Assembly (NCBI GenBank): GCA_026710945.1
Contig: JAPOQA010000014.1
Span: forward strand, 1-64,000
Direction of reading: 5' to 3'
Length of the DNA stretch: 64,000 nt
Source of the DNA: Chloroflexota bacterium
GTDB lineage: Bacteria > Chloroflexota > UBA11872 > VXOZ01
Shown piece by piece: positions 55,259-61,096 of the stretch. The notes under the pieces were generated by a model. It ran no database searches and had not been told where the DNA came from. It worked only from the letters and a program-made list of their open reading frames with translations. Each line of letters begins with the position of its first letter. The first letter of the stretch is position 1. Made by a program: the position numbers and the translations under genes.

Positions 55259-56542
55259 CTAGACAGACGCCAACGCCGGTTCAGCGACATAAGGAATGGT
55301 CAAGGGTCCCATAGGTAGGACGCAAGTCCTAGCGCCGGCGCCAAATTTCTCCCGCAGCGCTGCCACGGTTTCCTCAATCGAGCGGCACGGCGTAAGGTGC
55401 GCGTCTCGAATTGACTGGTCGGAAAGATTACCTGCATAGAGGTGGACTTCGGCCTTCAAGAGGATCTGCGCCAGAATTTGGGCCTCCCATTGGTCAAAGC
55501 GGGAAAACCCCGGACTGTTTATGAGGTCCAGCAATGCGGTCGGAGTTTCCCGCTCCTGCAATAGGTCCTCAAAGTGACCATGACCGATGCCTTCCGCACA
55601 TTCGGCAGCAATGACAATCGCGCCGCCTTGCTTCACCACCTGGTACGCTGCCGACATGCCCTTAACGGCTTGGTAGAGGTTCAAGTCCAAGGGATACCCG
55701 CTATTCGTCGTTATGACGATGTCGTACGGCTCGGCAACCGGCCGCATCACAGAGCGGCGCGCGAAGGCGCACCCAGCTTCATGGGCCTGAATCATCTCGC
55801 CGGCAAAGACAGCCGTAATCTCTTTACTCTTGTTGATCGTAACGTTCAAGCTGAGATCAGGCGGGCATAGCGCGGCCGCCTCGCGTTGCTCACCGTGGAT
55901 GGGGTTACCTTCTAAGTGTCCCCAGGTGGCCTTCGGGTGGCCGATCATTGCCGCGTTGTGATTGTGCATTACGGAATCTGCACCGGCAATGCCGGGCAAT
56001 ATGAGTTTTGCCCCGCCGCTAAAGCCCGCAAAGAAATGTGGCTCTATAAACCCGGTGAGGATCTTGACAGAAGCGTCAAGGTAATGGGTATTGACCCAAA
56101 CAGGTCCGCCGGAGGATGTTTCCCCCAGGAAGCGCAATTGAGACGCATCCGTCGAATCATGATTCACAATGCGGTAGTTATCTACCACGTCCTCGCCCAA
56201 CATGCCCCGCAATTCGGCATCCGTATTCGGACGATGCATGCCGGTGGCGTTAATGAGAACGAAGTTCTCCCGGGGCACATTCGCGAGTTCGGCAAGAATC
56301 GCCGGAATCATGAGGTGATTTGGCGCCGGACGGGTGATGTCGCAAAAGACAATCGCTACGGTGTCTTCTGCTCCGACAAGCTCGCAAAGCGGCTTTGCTC
56401 CAATTGGATTACGCAGTGATTCGCGCAGCGCTGCGAGGGGATCGGCTACTCCCGGGAGGTCTACGGGCTCTACGATATCCACATTCTCATGCGGCAATGA
56501 AATCGTCAGTCCAGTGCGGCCATACGCGAGATCGACCTGCAT
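55259..56542 (-). CDS. LarA-like nickel-pincer racemase/epimerase
   Basis: Member of the lactate racemase family (DUF2088), 427 residues, which racemises or epimerises 2-hydroxyacids using a nickel-pincer nucleotide. Visible family features are FCDITRPAPNHLMIP, LINATGMHRPNT with a conserved His, a catalytic His and the cofactor Lys in IEPHFFAGFSGGAKLILPGIAG, and HNHNAAMIGHP. The substrate may be lactate or another sugar-derived hydroxyacid, fitting the LDH2-type dehydrogenase elsewhere in the window. AAGG precedes the ATG by about six bases. larB, larC and larE, needed to make the cofactor, are not in the window. Confidence 0.88.
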   Translation of the reverse strand: MQVDLAYGRTGLTISLPHENVDIVEPVDLPGVADPLAALRESLRNPIGAKPLCELVGAEDTVAIVFCDITRPAPNHLMIPAILAELANVPRENFVLINATGMHRPNTDAELRGMLGEDVVDNYRIVNHDSTDASQLRFLGETSSGGPVWVNTHYLDASVKILTGFIEPHFFAGFSGGAKLILPGIAGADSVMHNHNAAMIGHPKATWGHLEGNPIHGEQREAAALCPPDLSLNVTINKSKEITAVFAGEMIQAHEAGCAFARRSVMRPVAEPYDIVITTNSGYPLDLNLYQAVKGMSAAYQVVKQGGAIVIAAECAEGIGHGHFEDLLQERETPTALLDLINSPGFSRFDQWEAQILAQILLKAEVHLYAGNLSDQSIRDAHLTPCRSIEETVAALREKFGAGARTCVLPMGPLTIPYVAEPALASV

Positions 56543-56693
56543 CGTACGCCTTCTTTCGCCTTTATCCTCATGGGGTTTAGTCCCTGTTCGCCAATACTAG
56601 CCTCTGTCTCTGCTGGCAGCAAGAGCCGGTGACCAGCTTCGCGCAAAGGCCACTCCTAACGGGTCGCGTCGCTCCCAACGGGCAGTGGCTGCG

Positions 56694-56722
56694 TTGACAG
56701 GAGAGGCAAACTTCGGTAGCAT
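56694..56722 (+). promoter_or_regulatory. Promoter of the thrS leader transcript
   Basis: TTGACA (56694-56699), 17-base spacer, TAGCAT (56717-56722). The -35 is a perfect consensus and the -10 matches four of six. Transcription would start near 56729, about 67 bases before the leader peptide. Confidence 0.72.
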
Positions 56723-56795
56723 CATATGGTAGTGGATTTGGACTGTATTCCACACGTCACGCGCTTGCAAGAGCGCAGCGAGGAGTTCTTCAGTA

Positions 56796-56885
56796 GTGTA
56801 TCGCATTGGTGGTTTCACACGCCGGCAACGATGCATTGCCCATATCACCACGACTGAACTCTCCTTGCAGGTGACGAGAGGATAG
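56796..56885 (+). CDS. Threonine-rich leader peptide of thrS
   Basis: A 29-codon reading frame, GTG at 56796 to TAG at 56883-56885, preceded by AGGAG (56781-56785) with 10-base spacing. The peptide contains ...CIAHITTTELSLQVTRG: Thr codons ACC-ACG-ACT in a row (56847-56855), plus single ACA and ACG. Such a Thr run just upstream of thrS is what is expected of an attenuator that senses charged tRNA-Thr. A ribosome stalled on the Thr run leaves 56874-56881 free; one that reaches the stop codon covers it. It is too short to be a normal gene product. Confidence 0.8.
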   Translation: MYRIGGFTRRQRCIAHITTTELSLQVTRG

Positions 56886-56922
56886 CAACACGCGTAATTG
56901 ACATTGCTAATAGCACTTGACG

Positions 56923-56956
56923 GCCTCTCGTACGCGCCTGACACGAGAGGCTTTTT
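56923..56956 (+). terminator. Attenuator terminator upstream of thrS
   Basis: GCCTCTCGT (56923-56931), 11-base loop, ACGAGAGGC (56943-56951), then TTTTT (56952-56956). The nine-bp stem competes with an alternative pairing of CCTCTCGT with the upstream ACGAGAGG (56874-56881). It stands about 50 bases before the thrS start codon. Confidence 0.87.
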
Positions 56957-57007
56957 CTATTGCCAGTGGCTTCAAACCAGGTCAATTGACTATGAGGAGA
57001 ATGACTA

Positions 57008-58795
57008 ATGCCGCAATCAAAGGGCACAGGTGACAGCAAGCGTGCAGCGCACTTGCATACGATGCGACACTCGGCAGCGCACGTGCTCGCGACGGCCATG
57101 CTCGAGTACATGCCCGAAGCAAAGCTAACAATCGGGCCTGCGATCGATGAGGGCTTCTACTACGACTTTGATTTACCCAGGACGCTGACACCGGACGACC
57201 TCGACGAACTCAGCCAGCGTATGCAAGACATCATCGATCAAGATCAGCCTTTCAACCACACCACTATGCCCGTGGCTGAGGCGAAGGAGTTTTTCCGCCA
57301 GCAAGACCAAGCATACAAGGTGGAGTTGATTGAAGACCTGGAGCGTGACGTCAACGCCGAAGACGTGAACATCTACCAGAATGGTGACTTCATCGATCTT
57401 TGCGAAGGCCCACACGTTGAGTCTACCGGCGCAGTAGGTGCATTCAAGTTGCTCCGCACGGCCGGTGCGTATTGGCGGGGCGATGAGAACCGACAGCAGC
57501 TCCAGCGCGTGTATGGTACGGCCTGGCAAACAAAGAAAGAACTCAGAACGTACTTGAACTTCCTGGAAGAGGCGGAGCGGCGCGATCATCGGCGACTGGG
57601 ACGTGAACTCGACCTCTTTAGCTTCTCCGATGAAATTGGCCCCGGCTTGGTGGTGTGGCATGCCAAAGGCGGACACGTGCGCAGCGTGATGGAGGACTAC
57701 TGGCGCGATAGTCACCGGGCCGGAGGGTATGAGTTTGTCTACACGCCGCACATCGGCAGGGCCAATCTCTGGCGCACGAGCGGGCACCTGAATTGGTTCG
57801 CGGAGAACATGTATGCCCCCGTGGAAGTTGACGAACAGCAATACTACTTGAAGCCGATGAATTGTCCTTTTCACATCCAGGTGTACAAGAGCCGCACGCG
57901 CAGCTACCGTGACCTGCCCTTGCGCTATACGGAGACCGGCACGGTCTATCGCTATGAGCGGTCGGGCGTGCTGCATGGGCTCCTGCGCGCGCGGGGCTTT
58001 ACGCAGGACGATGCGCATCTTTTCTGCCAGCCGGAACAGATGGACAGTGAGCTCACCCGCGTCCTGGACTTTTGCCTGGAGATTCTCGAAACTTATGGCT
58101 TCAAAGACCTTCAGTTGGAGCTGAGTACATGGGCACAGGGTGACACGAGCAAGTACGCGGGCGAGGCCAAAGACTGGGAAATGGCGGAGGCCGGCCTGGT
58201 GAGGGCCCTTGAAGGGCTCAATCTGAACTACAAGCGTATGGAAGGTGAAGCCGCATTCTACGGGCCAAAAGTTGACATAAAGATAGTGGATGTGCTGGGA
58301 CGTCCTTGGCAGCTATCTACTATTCAATTCGACTTTTGGTTGCCGCAGACCTTTGAGCTAGAGTACATCGGAGAGGATGGCGGCGCGCATAGGCCTTTCA
58401 TGATCCACCGCGCACTCTATGGCTCCATCGAGCGCTTCTTCGGCATCTTGCTCGAGCACTACGGCGGCGCGTTTCCTGTGTGGTTGGCGCCGGTCCAAGT
58501 CGCAATTATCCCGATTGCCGACCGGCATAACGAGTATGCACAGAGCGTGCAGGCTGCGCTTGCCCAAGCCGACATTCGTGTAGAGGTGGATACCCGTTCC
58601 GATCGGATGAATGCCAAGATACGCGATGCCCAACTTCAGAAAGTACCGTACATGGCAATAGTAGGCGATCGTGAGATCGAGGACGACGCGGTGAATATCC
58701 GATTGCGCACGGGTGAAAATCGTGGCGCATTGCCGATCGCTGAATTCTGCACGATGGTGCGGAACCGGGCGGAATCACGCTCTGATGCGCTTTAG
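57008..58795 (+). CDS. thrS: Threonyl-tRNA synthetase (without TGS domain)
   Basis: Charges tRNA-Thr, class II synthetase, 595 residues. It starts directly with the editing domain (HTMRHSAAHVLATAMLEYMP, FIDLCEGPHVESTG), so the N-terminal TGS domain of the about 640-residue Escherichia coli enzyme is missing. Catalytic motifs: MNCPFHIQVYKSRTRSYRDL with a zinc-ligand Cys, TQDDAHLF and MIHRALYGSIERFFGILLEH with the other zinc-site His residues, and the C-terminal anticodon-binding domain (PVQVAIIPIADRHNEYAQSV). GGAG is eight bases before the ATG. Expression is likely controlled by the leader attenuator. Confidence 0.96.
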   Translation: MPQSKGTGDSKRAAHLHTMRHSAAHVLATAMLEYMPEAKLTIGPAIDEGFYYDFDLPRTLTPDDLDELSQRMQDIIDQDQPFNHTTMPVAEAKEFFRQQDQAYKVELIEDLERDVNAEDVNIYQNGDFIDLCEGPHVESTGAVGAFKLLRTAGAYWRGDENRQQLQRVYGTAWQTKKELRTYLNFLEEAERRDHRRLGRELDLFSFSDEIGPGLVVWHAKGGHVRSVMEDYWRDSHRAGGYEFVYTPHIGRANLWRTSGHLNWFAENMYAPVEVDEQQYYLKPMNCPFHIQVYKSRTRSYRDLPLRYTETGTVYRYERSGVLHGLLRARGFTQDDAHLFCQPEQMDSELTRVLDFCLEILETYGFKDLQLELSTWAQGDTSKYAGEAKDWEMAEAGLVRALEGLNLNYKRMEGEAAFYGPKVDIKIVDVLGRPWQLSTIQFDFWLPQTFELEYIGEDGGAHRPFMIHRALYGSIERFFGILLEHYGGAFPVWLAPVQVAIIPIADRHNEYAQSVQAALAQADIRVEVDTRSDRMNAKIRDAQLQKVPYMAIVGDREIEDDAVNIRLRTGENRGALPIAEFCTMVRNRAESRSDAL

Positions 58796-59161
58796 TTGCA
58801 TACCACTCGAATCGGCTTGGTGTTGCTAAACACCGTATTCGTGGTACCCTTAAGAGAAGGAGCACTACAATTTCCGTCGCAGCCAGACGGAACGTCTCCT
58901 TCTCTATTCCCCTGACTCTTCACGTTTGTAGACTCCCACACCATTGAGTATTCACCGGCTTTGCTGCCGGCTTGAAGCGATTCTCTTCCTCTTTGGATTC
59001 TTGGAATTAACTCACTACCTAGATTGCTGGGACAGCCGAGGGATTGGCGCCGGTTGGCGGCATTGCCTCAATGGAAGCGGGGTGAGTTGTTCTCTGCTCA
59101 CGTACCTGCTGGCGCGCCACTCTGAGAATAACAAGCAATAGACAACGTACTGGAGGATAGT
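58796..59161. other. Intergenic region with nested hairpins
   Basis: A 366-base gap after thrS. AGAGAAGGAG (58853-58862) pairs with CTCCTTCTCT (58896-58905), enclosing TTCCGTC-GCAGCCA-GACGGAA (58871-58891). This probably ends or processes the thrS transcript, though T residues after it are few. The rest precedes the SpoIID-type gene and ends in GGAGG (59152-59156). Confidence 0.5.
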
Positions 59162-61096
59162 GTGTTCATGATTGGCACGTACCGAAACGCGTGCGGCCGC
59201 TCTCGTTTCCGCGTTGGTCTCATCATACTTGCGTTGTTTGCTGCCTTTATGCCTTCAAGCCTGCAAGCTAACGATGATACCATCTCTTTCCCTGAAACCG
59301 GCATGTCGGTTTCATTCGGATTCAAGAAGTACTTTGAGGAACGAGGCGGTCTGGAAATCTTCGGGTATCCTATTACTCCGGAGATTCAAGAAAACGGATT
59401 TACCGTGCAGTACTTTCAGCGCGCGCGCTACGAGTACCATCCCGAGCACGCTGGGACCCGCTACGAGGTGCAACTGGGGCTGCTTGGCGACATTCTGACC
59501 AGCGGCCGCGATTTTCCCAAAGCAATTCCTGTCCCAACGACGGAAAACCAGCGATATTTTCCGGAAACAGGTCATGTCGTTAGCGGCACTTTCTTGCGTT
59601 TCTACAACTCGCGAGGGGGACTGGATATCTTCGGCTATCCCATCTCGGAAGTCATTCAAGAGAACGGCAGAAGCGTGCAATACTTTCAAAGATCACGCTT
59701 TGAGTATCATCCTCAACTGCCGGAGCAATATCAGATAACGCTTGGCCTGCTTGGTGAAGAATTAGCAGAGCAGGTAGGGCCGCGTGGGCAGTTTTGGGTC
59801 ACGGGAATGCCCGAAACGCTCATGACAAGACAGGCCGTTGACTTGCAGGTAGCAGTGCAGAACGTCAGCATCGCGCGCTGGTCGCAATCGGGGACCGGTG
59901 CAGTCTCCGTGGGGTATCGTTGGCTCAACCAGCACGGCGCAACGGTGGCGGTGGGTCCACGGAAACCGCTTCCCCATGCTGTTCCTGCAGGCAGCGTAGC
60001 AACGCTTGCGTTTTCCCTCACTACGCCACCAACAGGAGGATCGCACATACTGCAGTGGGATCTCTGGCAGCAGGGGCGAGGATGGGCGGCATTGCGAGAT
60101 CCATCAGCAGGCTTGCGTCAAGCCTACATCATCCAAGTGCCTCAGCCTACTCCAACACCTACTCCCACGCCCACGCCGGCACCAGTTGCAACGCCGACAC
60201 CTACCCCGTTTGTAACGAGCGGCGTAGATGGTATGACAATCCGGGTTGGCGTCTTTTCTACTACCAGTGAGAGCATGCGCATTTCCGGTGACGGGAGATT
60301 CAGCGCAAGAGATGAGGACGGGAGAACTACTTACAACTTTCAAGCTGACGAGATTGTCACCGTGACGCATTTGCCGTCTCAGTCGAGCTATCGCTTGACG
60401 GTTGACGGGCGTACCGTGGCGGAATTCGCTTCCTATGCGCGCTTCGTCGCCCGTGGCAACACTATTCTGACCGTGCTCGACATGCCACGCTTCAAACAGT
60501 ACCGGAACGTGGTCGAAGTCCGCTATTCCACGTATTCTGAACGTATGTGGGCCATCAACGAGCTGCCGATGGAGTACTACGTGAAGGGCATAGGCGAGGA
60601 GCCGGAGTCGTTCCCGGCTGAAGGATTGAAAGCAGCCACCGTCGCCTACCGCACATATGCGCTTTCACACATGGATCCACAGTGGCCGGGACTGGGATGT
60701 ATCTGCGGCAAGGAACCGTTCGACATTACCGCGGGCACGGAGAAAGAGTTCAAACCGTACGTGAACTCACACCAATTGTACTTGGGCTACTACCGCGAGA
60801 CGTTCGGCAGTAATCTTGAGGCGGCCGCAAACGCTACGCGCGGCCAGTTCATGACCTATGACGGCAAGTTGATTCGCGCCGCTTACTATGCGACGGCCGA
60901 CGGGAGAACGCGGTCGTGGAGTGACTTTCCGTGGGCGGTGAGTGTGCCGGATCCGGTGAGTGAAGGTTCCACACTCGACGGGCACGGCTGGGGCATGCCG
61001 ATGAGGAGCGTTATTACGCTGGCAAACCGAGGAATGACCTACGACCAGATCCTCAAGATGTACTACACTGGCGTGGAATTGACGAAGCTGTATTAG
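59162..61096 (+). CDS. Secreted SpoIID/LytB-domain protein with LGFP-like repeats
   Basis: A 644-residue exported protein. Residues about 16-36 are the signal peptide (VGLIILALFAAFMPSSLQAN). Two repeats follow (about 45-125 and 135-205) with FPETG...F.KYF/FYNSRGGLDIFGYPI and QYFQRSRFEYHP, comparable to the LGFP-type cell-wall repeats and common in Chloroflexota. An Ig-like domain (about 210-320), a Pro-Thr linker (PTPTPTPTPTPAP) and a SpoIID domain end the protein, with ELPMEYYVKGIGEEPESFP, AYRTYAL and YYATADGRTRSW. SpoIID cleaves glycan strands of peptidoglycan in sporulation; here it is likely a cell-wall enzyme. GTG 59162 (GGAGG five bases upstream) or ATG 59168. Confidence 0.85.
   Translation: MFMIGTYRNACGRSRFRVGLIILALFAAFMPSSLQANDDTISFPETGMSVSFGFKKYFEERGGLEIFGYPITPEIQENGFTVQYFQRARYEYHPEHAGTRYEVQLGLLGDILTSGRDFPKAIPVPTTENQRYFPETGHVVSGTFLRFYNSRGGLDIFGYPISEVIQENGRSVQYFQRSRFEYHPQLPEQYQITLGLLGEELAEQVGPRGQFWVTGMPETLMTRQAVDLQVAVQNVSIARWSQSGTGAVSVGYRWLNQHGATVAVGPRKPLPHAVPAGSVATLAFSLTTPPTGGSHILQWDLWQQGRGWAALRDPSAGLRQAYIIQVPQPTPTPTPTPTPAPVATPTPTPFVTSGVDGMTIRVGVFSTTSESMRISGDGRFSARDEDGRTTYNFQADEIVTVTHLPSQSSYRLTVDGRTVAEFASYARFVARGNTILTVLDMPRFKQYRNVVEVRYSTYSERMWAINELPMEYYVKGIGEEPESFPAEGLKAATVAYRTYALSHMDPQWPGLGCICGKEPFDITAGTEKEFKPYVNSHQLYLGYYRETFGSNLEAAANATRGQFMTYDGKLIRAAYYATADGRTRSWSDFPWAVSVPDPVSEGSTLDGHGWGMPMRSVITLANRGMTYDQILKMYYTGVELTKLY

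Follow-up and report, generated by a model that had tools for sequence, protein, structure and literature searches.

In Escherichia coli, the trp, his, thr and pheST attenuators consist of a short open reading frame with cognate codons, RNA arms that pair as 1:2, 2:3 and 3:4, and a terminator before the gene. The E. coli thrS gene has an operator in which anticodon-like hairpins by the thrS ribosome-binding site are bound by threonyl-tRNA synthetase (ThrRS). For Streptomyces lividans, a leader peptide, thrL (MKRVRPFLETTPGFVPAR), is annotated upstream of thrS; it is leaderless, contains two Thr codons and lacks a clear terminator (PMC8079986). Leader-peptide attenuators are known or proposed for leuS and trpS of Streptomyces (PMC1262725), and histidine leader peptides replace T-boxes at hisS and hisZ of Bacillus (PMC2965389). 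T-boxes are already known from the Chloroflexi (PMC2494555).

We analysed a window of 64,000 nt from a Chloroflexota bacterium (GCA_026710945.1; JAPOQA010000014.1, positions 1-64,000, forward strand) that encodes thrS behind a structured leader. We predict, with a probability of roughly two in three, that this leader is a ribosome-mediated transcription attenuator with trp-operon-like anatomy. The features are as follows, and the family to which the leader belongs is called f1.

56694-56722, forward strand: promoter TTGACA-17-TAGCAT (TTGACA 56694-56699, TAGCAT 56717-56722), gapless in six leaders
56761-56776, forward strand: 5' hairpin GCGCT-TGCAAG-AGCGC, immediately before the Shine-Dalgarno sequence of the leader
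56781-56785, forward strand: leader Shine-Dalgarno sequence AGGAG, 10 nt before GTG, identical in sequence and spacing in all six leaders
56796-56885, forward strand: leader ORF VYRIGGFTRRQRCIAHITTTELSLQVTRG, GTG start, 29 codons, TAG stop at 56883-56885
56796-56836, forward strand: hairpin A, GTGTATCG (56796-56803) with CGATGCAT (56829-56836), covering the leader start, about -15 kcal/mol
56844-56849, forward strand: invariant ATCACC, codons 17-18 (Ile-Thr), the predicted partner of the Shine-Dalgarno sequence (GGAGAT-type)
56847-56855, forward strand: Thr codons ACC-ACG-ACT, codons 18-20, as read from the sequence
56859-56863, forward strand: arm 1, CTCTC, directly after the Thr codons, able to pair with arm 2, arm 4 or the Shine-Dalgarno sequence
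56868-56881, forward strand: arm 2, CAGGTG-ACGAGAGG (as a whole CAGGTGACGAGAGG), the 5' strand of the antiterminator, which pairs with arm 3
56924-56940, forward strand: arm 3, CCTCTCGT (56924-56931), plus the loop segment CGCCTG (56935-56940) that extends the antiterminator
56923-56956, forward strand: intrinsic terminator of arm 3, an 11-nt loop, arm 4 (ACGAGAGGC) and TTTTT, with pairs 100% kept in six leaders
57008-58795, forward strand: thrS, threonyl-tRNA synthetase, from Pfam domain matches

The promoter, AGGAG, GTG frame, Thr run, arms and T5 all lie where the original prediction had placed them. The thrS product matches Pfam tRNA-synt_2b, tRNA_SAD and HGTP_anticodon, which correspond to the class II core, SAD and anticodon-binding domains; the Pfam search gave no match to a TGS domain. 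Downstream of thrS (58842-58906) are GTGGTACCCTT and then a strong hairpin (AGAGAAGGAG..CTCCTTCTCT), which is likely the end of the thrS transcript. A conserved GGTACC-containing motif likewise lies upstream of leuS in the genus, beside a divergent gene.

Like the E. coli attenuators, the thrS leader has an ORF with cognate codons, four arms and a terminator, and pheST is likewise a synthetase gene. It differs from them in the gene controlled (thrS), the Chloroflexota host, the few cognate codons (2-3), a start codon that lies in a stable hairpin, and an antiterminator that also uses the terminator loop. The thrL-thrS arrangement of S. lividans resembles it in that a synthetase gene is preceded by a leader peptide containing few cognate codons, but the f1 leader has a Shine-Dalgarno sequence, a U-rich terminator and a defined antiterminator, and the two peptides seem unrelated, judged without alignment. 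Few cognate codons in a leader peptide before a synthetase gene are also found at Streptomyces leuS and trpS. The Bacillus hisS and hisZ leaders are alike in that a leader peptide is present at a synthetase gene that has a T-box in relatives; those are histidine leaders of Firmicutes, whereas the thrS leader is a threonine leader.

Whole-genome searches recovered five thrS orthologues whose gene order matches that of the window; four are in the genus (87-88% identity) and the sixth locus shares 82%. The genomes with homologous leaders are uncultured Chloroflexota metagenome bins. That sixth locus (L020/L061, G017 contig C12) has the order tsaD-larA-thrS-SpoIID and an f1-type leader, and is in a bin of family f2 that has its own thrS. 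Since f1-type gene order occurs here inside the bin of another family, the L020 contig is probably a misbinned relative. A leader covariance model searched against 400 Chloroflexota genomes found the six known loci and no convincing others, and a motif scan of the class allowing 3 mismatches gave, beyond the six, chance-level matches only. Weaker covariance-model matches were rejected as members; they are terminators before other genes, for example a dihydroorotase gene. Separately, L117 and L118 (G369 and G317) have a conserved leader, CATGTGTACGGACACTC..CCTCTGGGTTC..GAACCCAGAGGC-T6, immediately ahead of a dihydroorotase-like gene; it seems to be an attenuator of its own for a pyrimidine gene.

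In the aligned leaders, all six loci keep the promoter, AGGAG, RTG start, ACC, arms 2-4 and T tract. TTGACA and its spacing are kept in 6/6 leaders, TAGCAT in five, with TACCAT in L020, and within 55500-59500 this is the sole promoter-like site found. The 5' hairpin at 56761-56776 has, in a by-eye comparison, a similar counterpart with changed bases in the homologues. A ribosome-binding site and open frame (AGGAG-10-RTG) lie between promoter and terminator in every leader, and the stretch from the RTG TAT CG start through 17 codons up to ACC is free of indels (6/6). The conserved block runs CGATRCATTGCCY..ATCACC. For the first 18 codons the frame never shifts; beyond them are sequence drift, frame-changing insertions and moving stops. 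The other five leader peptides are VYRSSGFPLVSRCIARITTAGLSVHVARGP, VYRSSGFPLVSRCIARITTTGLSA, VYRSSGFPLVSRCIARITTTGLSAHVTRGQ, VYRFCGFALPQRCIARITAPTYACSR and MYRIGGVRAGQRYIASITPTLLLLAMGGEKDQ. Two to three Thr codons lie within codons 18-21 of each leader, with an in-frame ACC in all six, and none of the six has lost all its Thr codons or arm 2, in line with the original prediction. ACC (Thr 18) is the sole invariant Thr codon; in the conserved block, codons for Arg, Ile and Ala are conserved equally. Judged from these sequences, what conserves the ORF appears to be constraint on the RNA and not on the protein.

The Thr run by itself does not differ significantly from dinucleotide shuffles of the upstream 260 nt: P is 0.16 in the window leader L001, 0.64 in L005 and 0.57 in L020. 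This weak Thr enrichment would suit a leader that fixes the thrS level without threonine sensing, as a constitutive partial terminator or as a general sensor of translation or transcription, with the outcome decided by any stalled leader ribosome or by none loading. The sequestered Shine-Dalgarno sequence and its pairing with arm 1 in L001-L004 could then couple readthrough to the initiation rate. We consider this quite improbable: every leader of this Thr synthetase gene has 2-3 Thr codons at one set position ahead of arm 1, and Thr runs occur in f3 and f2 leaders too.

ACGAGAGG occurs at 56874-56881 and 56943-56950 and CCTCTCGT at 56924-56931, followed after the second ACGAGAGG by C and TTTTT (56952-56956). 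The window contains four exact ACGAGAGG/CCTCTCGT 8-mers, against 2.3 expected per 64 kb. The arrangement goes beyond chance, since three of these four are in the thrS leader and six thrS loci share the layout. A terminator scan that allowed loops of up to 8 nt missed this terminator because its 11-nt loop exceeds that limit. RNAalifold of the six leaders gave more pairing than the original prediction had noticed, namely arm 1 and a longer arm 2. We extend arm 2 to CAGGTGACGAGAGG because the invariant and otherwise unexplained loop GCCTG pairs with CAGGTG. With arm 1 and the extended arm 2, the leader therefore has 1:2, 2:3 and 3:4 alternatives, as in trp-type attenuators.

In the six leaders every one of the 8 core antiterminator pairs and 9 terminator pairs is standard (100%), as the mutually exclusive 2:3 and 3:4 pairing of the original prediction entails. 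Across the six, two terminator pairs are changed on both sides, and in L002 arms 2, 3 and 4 are changed jointly with pairing kept (GCGAGAGG / CCTCTCGC / GCGAGGGG). Hand-built helices give -12.6 to -15.0 kcal/mol for the terminators and -6.7 to -11.3 kcal/mol for the core antiterminators, up to -17.8 when extended. For the 1:2 protector helix, 96.7% of alignment cells pair; it is stable in four leaders only, L001-L004 (about -3.5 kcal/mol), and not in L005 and L020. No measure of covariation in the six leaders beats column shuffles, about 1 in 5 of which reach it. With six sequences and no covariation above shuffles, the alignment therefore gives conservation of pairing, not proof by covariation. 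Thus the GTG/RTG frame, the Thr codons and the arms are kept in related leaders, as had been anticipated, and the compensatory change anticipated with them is not significant.

The spacing of the parts is also kept, with 15-21 nt from the last Thr codon to arm 2 and 41-42 nt from arm 2 to arm 3 (6/6 leaders). Measured from the end of arm 2, stop codons range between 14 nt ahead of it and 13 nt beyond it, positions at which a terminating ribosome would always overlap the arm. When a ribosome was modelled by removing the region it covers, placement on the Thr codons gave the antiterminator and placement at the stop gave the terminator in 6/6 leaders; these modelled states agree with the original proposal that stalling leads to antitermination and arrival at the stop to termination.

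From the sequence, its conservation, the exclusive pairing and the spacing, we infer translation of the leader, stalling, termination and a response to threonine. The RNA would begin just downstream of the promoter and a ribosome would load at AGGAG/GTG. When charged tRNA-Thr is scarce, the ribosome may stall at Thr codons 18-20 and cover arm 1; arm 2 would then pair with arm 3 and the loop segment, the terminator would not form and thrS would be transcribed. When charged tRNA-Thr is abundant, a ribosome at the stop would cover arm 2, leaving arms 3 and 4 to form the terminator. With no ribosome, arm 1 may hold arm 2, again giving termination.

The best-conserved nucleotides of the leader are those of hairpin A, extended by the predicted pairing of the Shine-Dalgarno sequence with ATCACC. 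Hairpin A is paired in 6/6 leaders, and its pair-preserving changes are one-sided only. We infer that this hairpin probably admits only a ribosome that arrives while transcription is under way, or sets the timing of RNA polymerase. The original prediction of an attenuator thus stands in its geometry, which holds in 6/6 leaders, and needs amending at the Thr run, of which only ACC is invariant, in a block that pairs with the Shine-Dalgarno sequence and start codon and had escaped notice.

A Shine-Dalgarno sequence and start codon within a conserved hairpin leave room for a structured RNA sensor that works without translation. This is the main rival to attenuation: the conserved 5' stem-loop would itself bind uncharged tRNA-Thr or ThrRS, with ACC specifier-like, arm 2 steered between arms 1 and 3, and the ORF incidental or secondary. 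The extended stem (SD/ATCACC and GTGTATCG/CGATGCAT) would explain the best-conserved nucleotides of the ORF and carries the invariant ACC on its 3' side. We nevertheless judge such a sensor unlikely, because the Shine-Dalgarno sequence, RTG start, spacing and stop position are conserved as an ORF requires, because leaders of sister families have Thr-codon ORFs in unrelated sequence, and because the resemblance of the stem to a T-box is by eye only.

In 4/6 leaders hairpin A has GGU, resembling the tRNA-Thr anticodon, in its inner loop. This recalls autoregulation of the E. coli kind, where an anticodon-like hairpin in the leader of the ThrRS gene is the binding site of ThrRS itself. We rejected an operator of this type and regard such autoregulation as very improbable: L003 and L004 have GGAUUU in place of GGU, the hairpin is not at the thrS ribosome-binding site but about 170 nt upstream of the gene's start, on the far side of the intrinsic terminator, and the synthetase is the one without a TGS match.

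We also rejected a T-box identity for the leader. Covariance-model search found no match to RF00230 in the f1 thrS leader at gathering score or at E <= 5, as the original prediction implied, and the leader has no Stem I motifs and no T-box sequence GGUGGNACC. Nor is there a conserved UGGN/T-box bulge: the only TGG is lost in L020 and the base following it is variable. The missing covariance-model match and the missing bulge also argue against the stem-loop sensor. The sole T-box found in the genus is upstream of trpE. In families f4 and f5 of the class, and in many further families of the Chloroflexota, thrS is preceded by a standard T-box, which controls the same gene in related families; these T-boxes have an ACC-type specifier, and some have terminators with a similar CCTCTCGT arm, a likeness that favours the stem-loop sensor. 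The thrS leader seems to stand in for the T-box used by other Chloroflexota at this gene.

The sister families f2 and f3 lack a T-box at thrS, and most members examined have other short ORFs with Thr codons. The f3 leader ORFs (L192 and L030) contain ...ACC-ACC-ATC-ACT-ACC... and ...ACC-GTC-ACT-ACC...; in f2 (L029, L032, L036, L194, L195 and L196) they end ...ACC-GCC-ACT-AYC-TAG (...TRTATI*). Leader peptides are MRYASCETPRATRTATI in f2 genus g3 and MVICSRSICTPLREIRVTA in f2 genus g2, the latter followed by a strong hairpin and terminator, and some f2 and f3 leaders have a strong terminator. Two f3 genomes (G025 and G029) have no clear leader ORF before thrS. Thr clustering is significant in f3 (0/300 shuffles and 0.023; P < 0.004 for ACC-ACC-ATC-ACT-ACC), borderline in f2 genus g3 (0.02-0.05) and not significant in f2 genus g2 and f1. 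Compared with f2 and f3, the complete switch was seen in f1 leaders only.

Two other synthetase genes of the genus have short leader ORFs followed by terminators. The pheS leader (L156, about 1018-1160, and L157-L160) has a 23-codon ORF (MYPWAWQFTGPESRA...) whose length does not vary and in which one Phe codon (TTT) is invariant; it also has a CTAGGC/GCCTAG hairpin that straddles the stop, and the terminator GCAGAAAG..CTTTCTGC-T5. The valS leader (L143:1219-1400, and L138-L141) has an ORF of 13-15 codons with one invariant Val codon (GTA) within the conserved ATG GAC AGT GGG GTA TYG (MDSGV...), then a long hairpin and the terminator CCGCTCTCGTC..GATGAGAGCGGG-T5. In Rfam searches of the pheS and valS leader regions, the only match to a known RNA family was the tail of a tmRNA that lies upstream of valS. 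Attenuation common to all synthetases was rejected, as nothing similar was seen in the genus ahead of proS, serS, hisS, glyS, ileS, leuS, tyrS or trpS.

A single invariant cognate codon in thrS, as in pheS and valS, is a further point for the stem-loop sensor. Since each of the three leaders has one such codon in a nucleotide-conserved, partly structured block followed by a terminator, they could together represent an undescribed tRNA- or synthetase-sensing RNA class of this lineage, without a T-box sequence and with the ORF secondary; we hold this to be rather less probable still than such a sensor at thrS. Ribosome-mediated attenuation is favoured at thrS because six loci keep the layout, exclusive pairing, spacing and reach of the stop, because there is no T-box, and because Thr ORFs recur in f2 and f3; the short leader ORFs and terminators of pheS and valS also favour it.

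The literature searched, subscription journals excepted, describes no leader-peptide attenuator at thrS of any Chloroflexota. The original statement that none was known stands for this phylum and is qualified by the leader peptide annotated at thrS of S. lividans (PMC8079986). Because of that Streptomyces annotation, the type of switch is already known and the f1 leader is a further case. Threonine and the Chloroflexota join the synthetase genes that are apparently under leader-peptide attenuation. Within one class, thrS has either a T-box (f4 and f5) or a leader ORF (f1, f2 and f3), which makes it possible to trace how one sensor replaces another. Should the leaders of pheS and valS act alike, several synthetase genes of this lineage would have passed from sensing tRNA directly to relying on the ribosome as sensor.
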